A DNA stretch of 36,531 bases from a virus: IMG/VR virus record IMGVR_UViG_3300046484_000051, positions 1 to 36,531 of that record; one strand, written 5' to 3'. A program made the translations under genes and the position numbers. The notes below the pieces were generated by a model, which was not told where the DNA came from, searched no databases, and saw only the letters and a program-made list of their open reading frames with translations. Below, piece after piece: positions 8,571 through 24,792 of the stretch (positions are counted from its first letter, which is position 1; each line of letters begins with the position of its first letter).

Positions 8571-8782
8571 GCACCGCCCCCGCCAACAGGCGCAAACGCC
8601 TCCAGTACCGCGCCACGGTGCATTCGAGCCCCGAGGGCATCGCTCGGGCCCTGGCTTGGCTGGAGTCGCTACCGGATCTCGATACGCCCGTCGGGCCAGA
8701 TGGCGACCCCGCCCGGCAGCAAGACCGCGAGGACCATGGCGCGACGCTCGGCGAGGACGGCCCGCTTCGCTCGGCGAAGTAG
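8567..8782 (+). CDS. Hypothetical protein whose 3' half is antisense to the integrase gene
   Basis: 71 residues from GTG 8567 (GTGA overlap with the zinc ribbon gene). The N-terminal 34 residues (a basic stretch then SSPEGIARALAWLESLPDLD) look like real coding; the rest is read opposite the 3' end of the integrase gene (8669 onward) and is polar and unstructured. This may be a gene cut short when the integrase block was placed here. Confidence 0.5.
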   Translation: MSTAPANRRKRLQYRATVHSSPEGIARALAWLESLPDLDTPVGPDGDPARQQDREDHGATLGEDGPLRSAK

Positions 8783-10087
8783 TGCGGCCCGCTTTACCGT
8801 CTCGACCTCCGGTTGCCGGTCCGGAATGAGCCGCGCCCGTTCCAGGCTGCGCCGGGCCTGCTCCATCTCCCCCTGAAGCTCAGTCAACGCCCGTTCCGCG
8901 GCCTCCGGTGAGGCCCGACGCGCGACGCGCAAGAGCCGGTCTTCCTCCTTGGCCAGCTCGGCTAGCTTCGCTTCGGCGCTCTTCACCAGTTCCTTGGAAT
9001 CTGGGCCAGCCTTCGAGCGGGGAACAACATTTCGAGCAAGCCACACCAGGAGCTCATCCCAGGCGACGCCGTCAACCTCCTCGACTCGGTGCCATTTCTG
9101 ACACCCCTCGTTTCGGGCCGTCTGGTAGGACCTGCACACATAGTATAGGTACCGGAGTGCCCTCCGGCCGCCCTGCTTGACCCACATCGTCGATCCGCAC
9201 AGACCGCAGACCGCCCTTCCCCTGAGCAGCGCCGGCAGAAGGCCGGTCGCCGGTCGACCCGCGCGGCTGTTCTTGATCGCGAGCTGAGCCCGCTTCCAGG
9301 CCTCAAGGTCGACGACGGGCGGACACGTGAGCGCGACGCCGTTGGTGGTGAGTTCACCGATGGCCGAGCGATGCTTGACGAGTCGCGAAACATGGCCGGC
9401 TGACCAGGCCTCCGAGTGAAGCTGGCCCCGGAGTGCGGCGCCTACCGTCGGGATCTTCTCCGCGTTCAGATCCTTGGCGATCTGATTCAGGGATTTTCCG
9501 GCGAGTACGTCCCGGTAGATGCGCCGGTAGACCTTCAACCGCTCGGGGTCCGTGCCCCAGGTGCCGGCGACCTTGTTCCAGGTCCGCGCGTACGGGGGCC
9601 GACCCTGCAACTTGCCCTGCTGGGCTAGCCTCACCTTCGCCGAGTAGGTCCGTTCGAAGATGCGCCTGCGTTCGCGCGCCGCCACGATGGTCTGAAAGGC
9701 GAAGTCGAGCTCGCCCATCTCGCTCGCGGGGTCGATCACGTGGTTACCTGCGTCGACGATCACGGCGCCCGCATCTGCAACTGCACCGAAGATCGCGTAG
9801 CGCTCACGGGGGTCGGGGTGGCGGGTGAGTCGGTCGATGTGCCGGACGCGGACTTCGTCGAATGCCTTCGAGCCGGCCAACACGAAGAGCCGCTGGAGGT
9901 CCGGCCGCTGGTCGAGCGGTAGAGCGCCTGACAGGCCGGCCGCCCCTTCCTCGATGCGCTCGACCAGGATCCCCGGACGGGTCCTTCGAAGGGCATCTAG
10001 GGCTCGACGCTGGTCGGCGGGTGTGTCACGCTCTGCCTGGCTGGAACCTGAGACTCGGACCAACTCGACGAAACGGGGCTCTGGCAT
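8669..10087 (-). CDS. int: Large serine recombinase (integrase)
   Basis: 472 residues. N-terminal resolvase domain: LVRVSGSSQAE with the R-x-S-x-x-x-Q signature (R11, catalytic S13, Q17), then RVRHIDRLTRHP with conserved Asp-Arg-Leu-Arg. Recombinase domain from about 150 (GRPPYARTWNKV...). Zinc ribbon CGLCGSTMW then YVCRSYQTARNEGC, followed by a coiled coil rich in Glu/Arg (about 345-430) and a short beta tail. The size is at the small end for large serine integrases. By family it joins attP and attB through a 2-base staggered break. No clear ribosome binding site precedes the ATG; an in-frame stop 18 bases upstream excludes a longer form. Confidence 0.93.
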   Translation of the reverse strand: MPEPRFVELVRVSGSSQAERDTPADQRRALDALRRTRPGILVERIEEGAAGLSGALPLDQRPDLQRLFVLAGSKAFDEVRVRHIDRLTRHPDPRERYAIFGAVADAGAVIVDAGNHVIDPASEMGELDFAFQTIVAARERRRIFERTYSAKVRLAQQGKLQGRPPYARTWNKVAGTWGTDPERLKVYRRIYRDVLAGKSLNQIAKDLNAEKIPTVGAALRGQLHSEAWSAGHVSRLVKHRSAIGELTTNGVALTCPPVVDLEAWKRAQLAIKNSRAGRPATGLLPALLRGRAVCGLCGSTMWVKQGGRRALRYLYYVCRSYQTARNEGCQKWHRVEEVDGVAWDELLVWLARNVVPRSKAGPDSKELVKSAEAKLAELAKEEDRLLRVARRASPEAAERALTELQGEMEQARRSLERARLIPDRQPEVETVKRAALLRRAKRAVLAERRAMVLAVLLPGGVAIWPDGRIEIR

Positions 10088-22492: not shown

Positions 22493-23458
22493 TTACCCGT
22501 TGTAGTAGCCCTGGAACATGCGGCCCGAACAGGTCATGTTGCCCGCCCACGCCAGCACGGTGGCCGACACGTCCTGGTTGAGCGCGTACCGGTTCTCGGG
22601 GGAGAGCGTGACCATGTTGCGCTCACTCGAAGGCCGGTACTTGAGGAAGTCGGTATTGAGGAAGTACGCGACCCAGGTCGGGCAGAAGCCGCCGATCCCG
22701 CCGTCGAGGATCACGTCCGCGTTCTTGTAGCGATAGCCCTGGAACCCGAGATTGCCGAGCTTCGCCTCATTGAAGCGCTGGAGGGCCTGCAGAGAGGCCT
22801 CAAACGCTCCGTAAACGTTTCCATCGGCCAGGATCAGGTTCGGCTGATTCTTGCCTCTCGAGCACTTCGCGTACAGGGTGTTAAAATAGCCCTGGACGTT
22901 GCTCGCGGTGGTGCCACCCGAGCCAGGGCCACCAGTCTGGTTGCGCCAGAACGGCCACTGCGCCGGATCGATCGAGCCGTAGACGCCGCTCGAAGGAGCC
23001 GCGACGACCGCCGTCCCGAGTCCGTTGATGCTCTTTCCGCCCTGGAGAGTGCCGTCCGAGTAGAGACCCTGAGCGACCAGGTTCGCCATCGAGGCCTTCG
23101 CCACCCCGACACGGCCGGTGACGAGGTCGATGATCGCCTGCTTGCCGGAGTTTTGGATCTTCTCCAACCCGGTCACGATCACGGCGCAAGCGGCCTGTTT
23201 CCAGGGGAACTGAGCCGCGGTGATCACGTCCTGCGCGGCCACGGACAGGAGATCCTGTCCGGAGTACCACATGGCGTTGCCGTTCGCCTGGAACGAAATC
23301 TCTTCGAAGATCACGACGCCGCCCGAGATCTCCTCGATGCGGTCCGACTCCTTCATTTGGGTCAATACGGCGTTGTTCGCCGTAACGTTGTCCCTGATTT
23401 CCCCGCCGCGGTACTCGATGGTAGTCGCGACGAGGTCCGTCACGTTGGGGAAAGCCAT
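22493..23458 (-). CDS. Major capsid protein
   Basis: 321 residues. N-terminal arm (AFPNVTDLVATTIEYRGGEI) then IEEISGGVVIFEEISFQANG, MWYSGQDLLSVAAQDVITAA, QFPWKQAACAVIVTGLEKIQ, NSGKQAIIDLVTGRV and GSIDPAQWPFWRNQ: blocks I know from a major-capsid family of podoviruses in high-GC Gram-negative hosts. Scaffold gene upstream, decoration-like gene downstream. A GAGGAG site precedes the ATG, behind a strongly structured 143-base leader. Confidence 0.9.
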   Translation of the reverse strand: MAFPNVTDLVATTIEYRGGEIRDNVTANNAVLTQMKESDRIEEISGGVVIFEEISFQANGNAMWYSGQDLLSVAAQDVITAAQFPWKQAACAVIVTGLEKIQNSGKQAIIDLVTGRVGVAKASMANLVAQGLYSDGTLQGGKSINGLGTAVVAAPSSGVYGSIDPAQWPFWRNQTGGPGSGGTTASNVQGYFNTLYAKCSRGKNQPNLILADGNVYGAFEASLQALQRFNEAKLGNLGFQGYRYKNADVILDGGIGGFCPTWVAYFLNTDFLKYRPSSERNMVTLSPENRYALNQDVSATVLAWAGNMTCSGRMFQGYYNG

Positions 23459-23467
23459 ACCGAAAGT

Positions 23468-23581
23468 CTCCTCAAACTTCGATGACGTGACCTTTGCGCG
23501 TTGGCGACCCTGTGTCGCTCGGACCGCGCCCCGTCACGGGGGCCCTTCCATCGAAGCGAGTTAGCCTGGTATGGCTCTCGC
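23468..23581 (-). ncRNA. Structured RNA leader of the capsid gene
   Basis: On the minus strand the gap between scaffold and capsid genes can fold almost completely. Hairpin A: GCGAGAGCC / GGCTAACTCGC (23556-23581, 9 bp, AA bulge). Helix B: CTTCGATG / CATCGAAG (23549-23556 with 23477-23484). Inside B: hairpin C CCCCG-TGA-CGGGG (23529-23541), and helix E GCGCG/CGCGC (23525-23529 with 23496-23500) enclosing hairpin D GCGAC/GTCGC (23504-23518). The ribosome binding site GAGGAG (23468-23473) follows helix B by four bases. Could set capsid:scaffold ratio. No known RNA family recognised. Confidence 0.5.
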
Positions 23582-23601
23582 TCTACCGCTCTGCTTTGCT
23601 G

Positions 23602-24792
23602 CTACACGCGACCTTCGATGTCTTCGAAGGCCTTCTCGGTGATCTCCCGGGGGTTGAGCTTGCCCTTTTCTCTGGGTGTCTCGACTGCCGGTCTGCTACG
23701 AATACTTACCGCCGCCGCCCTTGACCGCTGCGTTGAGGCTCTCGCCTTCGCTGCCAATTCTGCTGCCCGACGTTGTTCAAAGACCGGAGCAACGTCGGGG
23801 TTCGACTGGCAAGCGATAGTATACGCCCGTTCCATGTCAGCGTCGGAAACCTCTCTCTTGCCCTGCTTTGCCCAGAGGTCGAGGATATCCGCCACCCCGT
23901 CTGCCACGTCATCCGAGAATTCGTGCGATGCCCGGAACGCTGCGGAGCGCTCCTGTGCCGAGCTCTCGATCTGTGACGCCCGCTCCGCAAGCATCTGATC
24001 GATCCGAGGGTCTCGGAATTGCTGCTGCTGCTGCTGCTGCACCTGGCCCTGGGGCGCGGGCTGCGCGCCCTGTCGACCCTGGAGGCGCGCCGCGAGGGCG
24101 CGGACCAGTGGCGAGGTGAAGGAACCGTCCGGCTCCTGTCGGTCGGGCTGCAGCAGGTGAGCGCCGTACTGCGCCACCACCGCGGCGAGCGTGTCTGCCT
24201 GGGCGTGCGGCGGCCCGTAGGTGAGCGCGTGCACCGTCTGCAGCAGGCTGCCCACGTAGGCCGCAGGCTCCATGCCGCTCGAGCGGATCGTGGCTTCGTA
24301 GGGGCGCACCTGCGCCTCGAAGGCACCACCGGACTGCCGGAGTTGGGCGTTTTCCTGCAAAACCTTGGTGGTCTCTCGGTTGACGCGGAGGATCTCCTCC
24401 TGGACGTCGGGGGGCAGGCTCGCGAAGCGCTCCCGCGCCGCCGGCTTCCAGCTCTGCGGGGCTTTCGCTGGGGGCTGGACCCCAGGAGCCGGCGCAACCG
24501 GCTCTCGCGCCGCAGGAGCAATCTGTGGCTTCGCAGGGGCCGCTTCCTGGCGGGGCTTGGCCTTGATCTTCGGCTCGTCCTTCGGCGCCTTGGCGAACCG
24601 GCCCGACTCGTCCCGGGCCCGTTCGTCCCGCTGCGCCTGGGTCTCGCCCTCTACTGGCTCGGGCCGGACCGGCGGCTCACCGGCGTCTCCGTCCGCGAGC
24701 GAGTCAAACGCCCGCTCCGTCACCTCTCGCGGCGAAAGTTCGGCTTCGCCGCTGTCGGTCCCCTCGATCTCGTCTTCGTCTTGGACAGCCAT
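23602..24792 (-). CDS. Capsid scaffolding protein
   Basis: 396 residues, ATG 24792. Highly charged, Pro/Ala/Gln-rich, with coiled-coil parts (NRETTKVLQENAQLRQSGGA), a poly-Gln run near 265, and a helical C-terminus, as in podovirus scaffolds; directly upstream of the capsid gene. The motif SPREVTERAFDSL (20-32) is repeated in variant form NPREITEKAFEDI at the extreme C-terminus (380-392). In P22-type scaffolds the C-terminal helix binds the coat protein. Confidence 0.85.
   Translation of the reverse strand: MAVQDEDEIEGTDSGEAELSPREVTERAFDSLADGDAGEPPVRPEPVEGETQAQRDERARDESGRFAKAPKDEPKIKAKPRQEAAPAKPQIAPAAREPVAPAPGVQPPAKAPQSWKPAARERFASLPPDVQEEILRVNRETTKVLQENAQLRQSGGAFEAQVRPYEATIRSSGMEPAAYVGSLLQTVHALTYGPPHAQADTLAAVVAQYGAHLLQPDRQEPDGSFTSPLVRALAARLQGRQGAQPAPQGQVQQQQQQQFRDPRIDQMLAERASQIESSAQERSAAFRASHEFSDDVADGVADILDLWAKQGKREVSDADMERAYTIACQSNPDVAPVFEQRRAAELAAKARASTQRSRAAAVSIRSRPAVETPREKGKLNPREITEKAFEDIEGRV

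Follow-up and report, generated by a model that had tools for sequence, protein, structure and literature searches.

The window analysed here, the whole of a 36.5-kb IMG/VR virus record, encodes on its minus strand a major capsid protein (22493-23458; PHROG 9953, E 1.7e-93), the presumed regulated gene, preceded by a leader of 143 nt (23459-23601, minus strand) that extends from the stop codon of a scaffold-like gene (23602-24792, minus strand) to the capsid start codon and has homologous counterparts in related phages. The scaffold-like ORF retrieved no PHROG match; it occupies the position of p47 in Mx8, and its product is similar to the scaffolds of other phages with this class of leader. 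Neither an intrinsic terminator (a stem followed by a T run) nor sigma-70 hexamers were found within positions 23200-24000 of the window, and a promoter or terminator in its scaffold-capsid gap was rejected on these grounds. Sequences resembling sigma-70 promoters were recognized by eye in the gap of several relatives (L034, L006/L007, L025, L062 and L268; e.g. TTGACA...TTAGAAT in L062), which suggests a separate capsid transcript in those phages. Elsewhere in the window, an integrase match at 8669-10087 (minus strand; PHROG 95, also DNA invertase PHROG 125) indicates that the phage is probably temperate. The closest capsid outside viral records, with 85% identity to that of the window, lies in an Anaeromyxobacter oryzisoli genome and points to myxobacterial hosts, the cultured relatives by capsid being Mx8, Mx9, Stenotrophomonas phage BUCT555 and others.

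An earlier note on this DNA had described the leader as a nested set of helices, i.e. hairpin A, an 8-bp helix B, hairpin C, and helix E enclosing hairpin D, and all of them are present in the sequence where it had placed them, on the minus strand. Hairpin A (23554-23583), recovered in our module scan as GAGCGAG-A-GCC(ATACCA)GGC-TAA-CTCGCTT, consists of the pairs 23583-23577/23560-23554 and 23575-23573/23566-23564, between which an unpaired A (23576) faces TAA (23563-23561); this 1x3 internal loop is an A/YMA module, among few of its kind in the window. Helix B, hereafter P1, joins CTTCGATG (23549-23556) to CATCGAAG (23477-23484) over 8 bp, its 5' strand sharing 3 nt with the 3' arm of hairpin A, and the Shine-Dalgarno sequence GAGGAG (SD; 23468-23473) begins four bases past it, as had been claimed. 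Hairpin C, or P2, pairs GCCCC (23539-23543) with GGGGC (23528-23532), and helix E with hairpin D constitutes P3 (23496-23527), a second A/YMA module of sequence CG-A-GCGAC(ACAGG)GTCGC-CAA-CG in which A 23519 is opposite CAA 23503-23501. That description lacked a pseudoknot, any pairing by the ribosome-binding strand, and the module common to hairpin A and E/D. In the window the predicted pseudoknot engages the entire P2 loop, CGTGAC (23533-23538), with GTCACG (23486-23491) in 6 bp. Folding energy compared with shuffled sequence, which the note had offered as a check, went in the expected direction (-52.6 versus -45.9 +/- 3.9 kcal/mol; z -1.72, with 9 of 200 shuffles equalling it, and z -1.03 for the opposite strand); by this measure the leader of the window stands out only mildly, and single-sequence energy is not decisive alone.

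The comparison with relatives, the second check put forward in that note, turned out to be far more informative. Scanning IMG/VR with the capsid protein of the window provided 60 loci, and in one scan for capsid relatives 80 of 592 were kept, among the matches listed. The same leader layout with a different sequence was recognized in Mx8, Mx9, the Anaeromyxobacter prophage locus and the loci L003, L014 and L033. A DNA pattern for the core of this layout retrieved 22 IMG/VR contigs, 21 of them with the element directly before a capsid homolog and a relaxed version added a few further members, likewise before capsid genes (the contig of L203 ends shortly past the capsid start); L156 and most of the relaxed-pattern matches have no downstream capsid and noise-level scores, and were dismissed as chance matches. 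A covariance model built from 23 of the pattern-found leaders scored 33 relatives at 33.6 to 83.7 bits, against noise of at most 18.5 bits in all the loci scanned. We define this class here as the Mx8-type capsid leader RNA, and the window leader belongs to it by its score above noise (49.3 bits, the model ending 16 nt upstream of the ATG), its pseudoknot and its position before the capsid start. Two of 195 Myxococcota genomes carry the element, the same two that carry the capsid gene, and the other 193 have none. In about a quarter of the capsid family, comprising whole clades, the leader is shorter than 60 nt and the element absent, so that some lineages can dispense with it. Two further loci (L170 and L174) have Mx8-type leaders beside capsids only ~37-38% identical to that of the window, and their scaffolds cluster with Mx8-type scaffolds.

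All 33 members share the pseudoknot, in which the P2 loop pairs with bases beyond P3, 3-6 nt past the CGCGCA that closes it. The pairing of each member with its own partner averages -10.4 kcal/mol, as compared with -6.2 for swapped partners, a total reached by none of 5000 permutations, and each of the first seven pairs is seen as several pair types. P2 and P3 together have 95.7% of cells paired, with 7 of 15 pairs altered on both sides, and none of 500 shuffles was as good; sliding the partners by 1 to 3 columns abolished the pairing. This figure was obtained with P3 in the A/CCA register, which replaced the GUG/CAC register of the first model, and all five inner pairs of P3 covary across members. 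P2 alone has 97% of cells paired, a conservation due in part to the search pattern having fixed GGGGC, and it is altered to a compensatory CCCU/AGGG in two members, including among leaders found by other routes. With P1 covarying as well across the 33 related leaders, it is confirmed at the level of sequence comparison, rather than by folding energy, that a structured leader beyond chance expectation exists at this locus, and both the existence of the RNA and its location in cis, ahead of capsid genes, can be taken as near certain. The suggestion that this could be a novel structured RNA was likewise borne out by the strong covariation, by the capsid gene as sole association and by the lack of an Rfam match. 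Rfam 15 contains no family reaching its gathering threshold in the whole window or in 20 other loci of the family, and a relaxed search with the window leader and four member loci yielded chance-level hits only (aspS at 15.5 of the 42.5 bits needed, and Xoo2 outside the leader).

Hairpin A and P3 are variants of one module, in which an outer and an inner stem flank an internal loop with a single unpaired A on one side and unpaired CCA (or CAA, TAA, TCA) on the other. When the 256 possible 1x3 internal loops were counted in 139 non-redundant capsid leaders, A/CCA came first in either orientation, being present in 46 and 29 leaders as compared with 14 and 8 for the runner-up loops. Flanked by stems of 4+3 bp it occurs in 49 of the 139, compared with 1.2 (at most 4) after dinucleotide shuffling, and the excess extends to leaders outside the Mx8-type class (37 of 115 versus 0.9 shuffled). 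Leaders carry it at 2.72 per kb, some 30 times the 0.09 per kb seen in the remainder of these loci, and the opposite strand has 0.064 per kb; this restriction to leader and strand argues that the module functions at the RNA level, as part of the capsid message. Individual phages vary the theme. L003, a close relative of the window, has a plain hairpin where others have the A/CCA hairpin A, and Mx9 (L063) has a second copy of the module nested within hairpin A in inverted orientation (GGC-CCA-CCC...GGG-A-GCC). Leaders of L271, L281, L233, L237, L257, L262 and L098 contain two or three hairpins each with a common octaloop, ANTCAMGC; these hairpins, found mostly in A/CCA-free leaders, are possibly a second type of operator in another clade. 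The idea that short-leader phages had moved the module upstream of the scaffold was abandoned, its density there being at background (0.118 versus 0.095 per kb). In some of these phages A/CCA hairpins lie within the scaffold coding sequence, towards its 5' end; they are placed ~1040 nt ahead of the capsid start in L052, L053, L054 and L057 and at the scaffold start codon in L363 and L370, and may reflect either conservation at the protein level or a moved operator.

A hairpin recurring in this manner looks like a protein docking site, and we infer protein binding because the module is recurrent, restricted in position and free in orientation. The coat proteins of MS2 and PP7 control translation by reading an operator hairpin with a special unpaired A. 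The Mx8-type leader resembles these operators in its hairpins with an unpaired A and in having a phage structural protein as the candidate reader; it differs from them in that MS2 and PP7 rely on one bulged A together with invariant loop bases, whereas here, in dsDNA podoviruses, a 1x3 A/YMA loop recurs with variable hairpin loops, in several copies and both orientations, and its binding by protein is putative. The compact pseudoknot and the conserved unpaired bases (a GCARAA linker and the A/CCA loops) are also reminiscent of ligand-binding RNAs, and the leader might bind a host factor or a small ligand, in the way of a riboswitch or of a ribosomal-protein leader, instead of a phage structural protein. 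We regard this as improbable, given that the element occurs before capsid genes only and lacks an Rfam match, that it lacks the downstream genes of a metabolic pathway expected of metabolite riboswitches, and that the presence of A/CCA across many divergent phages from varied environments makes a single host factor less likely.

The second conserved property of these leaders concerns the ribosome-binding site. The stretch between the pseudoknot and the start codon pairs with the hairpin A-to-P2 segment of its own leader at -22.2 kcal/mol and with swapped partners at -15.8, a difference attained in none of 5000 permutations, and since the ribosome-binding strand covaries with the 3' arm of hairpin A, the formation of this hairpin and the hiding of the ribosome site would be alternatives. 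The SD strand of many members nearly repeats the 5' arm of hairpin A (in L175, for example, AGCGAGAGCC of hairpin A has AGCGAGGGCC as its counterpart at the SD), and this repeat is leader-specific, with 1 in 10000 permutations as good. In models that omit the pseudoknot the hidden form has a mean advantage of 6.1 kcal/mol, and the SD is paired to the hairpin A arm region with a mean probability of 0.72; in the fold with hairpin A formed, these models leave the SD only partly free. The tendency extends to the wider capsid family: in 133 non-redundant leaders the upstream pairing of the SD strand has a mean z of -1.69 (control -0.05), with 36% of them below -2 (control 5%), and the leaders of the family, taken together, show strong structure (mean z -2.81 versus -1.00 in capsid-gene controls). 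In the window the predicted energy is -63.3 kcal/mol with hairpin A disallowed and -53.4 with it enforced. Its own hidden fold would cover the start codon through 9 bp between a hairpin A segment, AGCCATACC (23576-23568), and its exact complement in the start-codon region, GGTATGGCT (23461-23453), and GAG of the SD (23473-23471) can pair in an alternative fold with CTC of the hairpin A 3' arm (23560-23558). Strand exchange near the SD is weaker in the window than in its relatives, hairpin A and P1 overlapping by just 3 nt; a direct repeat of the hairpin A arm is not evident in the SD region of the window, and its own P1 energy ranks 9th among the 33 partners. The long helix persists, with a different sequence, in L069 and L003, which are closely related to the window. 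Translational control, one of the functions the earlier note had envisaged, is thus well supported by the covarying pairing of the ribosome-binding strand, and the leader likely controls capsid translation by hiding and exposing the ribosome site, as judged from covariation and folding models.

The mutual exclusion of hairpin A and SD pairing is also what would be expected of translational coupling without any ligand, in which the footprint of ribosomes ending the scaffold gene just ahead of hairpin A opens or blocks this hairpin, deciding whether the capsid ribosome site is hidden, and the RNA senses scaffold translation directly. Many members indeed have the scaffold stop codon near hairpin A (at a distance of 18 nt in the window), and in L033 and L161 it abuts or overlaps the 5' arm of the hairpin; nonetheless, coupling leaves unexplained why A/CCA recurs in both orientations and in several copies across differing leader layouts, and we consider it rather unlikely. 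A still smaller chance is given to an element of mRNA stability or RNase processing that shields the processed 5' end of the capsid mRNA and makes capsid the most abundant message. Its position at the scaffold-capsid boundary and the strong structure at the would-be 5' end fit such a role, and the gene 32 mRNA of T4 combines a pseudoknot operator with a nearby site of RNase E processing (PMC3014915), but stability alone would require neither a conserved pairing of the SD strand nor a fixed internal-loop sequence.

If a phage structural protein reads the leader, scaffold and coat are the obvious candidates. Over 205 taxa and for three labels, the scaffold tree requires slightly fewer changes of leader class than the capsid tree (3 vs 5, 9 vs 12 and 23 vs 28), which at the sequence level weakly favours the scaffold as reader, the comparison being confounded by linkage because leader, scaffold and capsid genes are adjacent. 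The stronger statement that the leader strongly follows the scaffold, as judged from BLAST neighbours, was discarded, since on trees it is reduced to a modest trend, also with GC-matched taxa. In P22, free scaffold feeds back post-transcriptionally on the expression of late structural genes, its target being its own synthesis, and no such RNA operator for scaffold feedback is known to us in P22 or other tailed phages; the head module here is P22-like, with the difference that the structured RNA precedes the capsid gene. Control by capsid or scaffold protein, as had been proposed from the window alone, is plausible in view of the operator-like A/CCA module and the slightly fewer changes on the scaffold tree, with the role of the protein itself staying conjectural; it is the leading, still unproven, mechanism.

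On balance we favour, with some reservation, a cis-acting switch on capsid translation in which the A/CCA hairpins serve as binding sites for the scaffold or coat protein of the phage. The hiding of the ribosome site is the supported part of this model; the binding of a protein, its identity and the sign of its effect are the parts we infer. The pseudoknotted core (P2, the pseudoknot and P3, with the short P1 flanking them) would place the 3' arm of hairpin A beside the ribosome-binding strand. Pairing of this arm with its own 5' arm would form hairpin A and leave the ribosome site more open, and pairing with the ribosome-binding and start region would extend P1 and hide the site. Transcription reaches hairpin A first, and the hidden form is usually predicted as the more stable. 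The A/CCA modules of hairpin A and P3 would be the most likely site for the structural protein, scaffold or coat, whose binding could tip the balance and thereby set the capsid:scaffold ratio. More tentatively, and with somewhat less than even confidence, it can be speculated that this is a family-wide operator: in Mx8-like podoviruses either scaffold or coat protein would read A/CCA hairpins, one to several and in either orientation, in capsid leaders and flip a pseudoknot-braced capsid/scaffold switch, with other clades using different repeated hairpins.

The nearest working analogue is the pseudoknot operator of T4 gene 32. The gene 32 mRNAs of T4, T2 and RB69 carry a simple pseudoknot and, after it, a ribosome site that is A+U-rich and unstructured and serves cooperative spreading; through this operator the single-stranded DNA-binding protein they encode regulates its own synthesis (PMC3014915). 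In both systems the leader of a phage mRNA for an abundantly used protein contains a pseudoknot that precedes the ribosome site, the one described here being predicted and supported by covariation; here, in contrast, the gene encodes capsid, the ribosome site is paired and not A+U-rich, and A/CCA has no counterpart in gene 32. The history of the Mx8-type structural module has been described in an article in which the words 'intergenic', 'hairpin' and 'untranslated' are absent (PMC10386132), and no description of a structured leader of Mx8-like capsid genes was found in the literature, the subscription literature having been covered in part, so that novelty is unproven. The leader is, from sequence comparison, a previously uncatalogued structured RNA common to the window phage, Mx8 and Mx9. 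How the balance of capsid and scaffold is set after transcription in tailed phages is an old question, to which this element brings a concrete, mutable RNA in a tractable phage, Mx8 of Myxococcus xanthus; a specific recognition of RNA by protein, testable in vitro, is predicted from the occurrence of the A/CCA module across many divergent phages.
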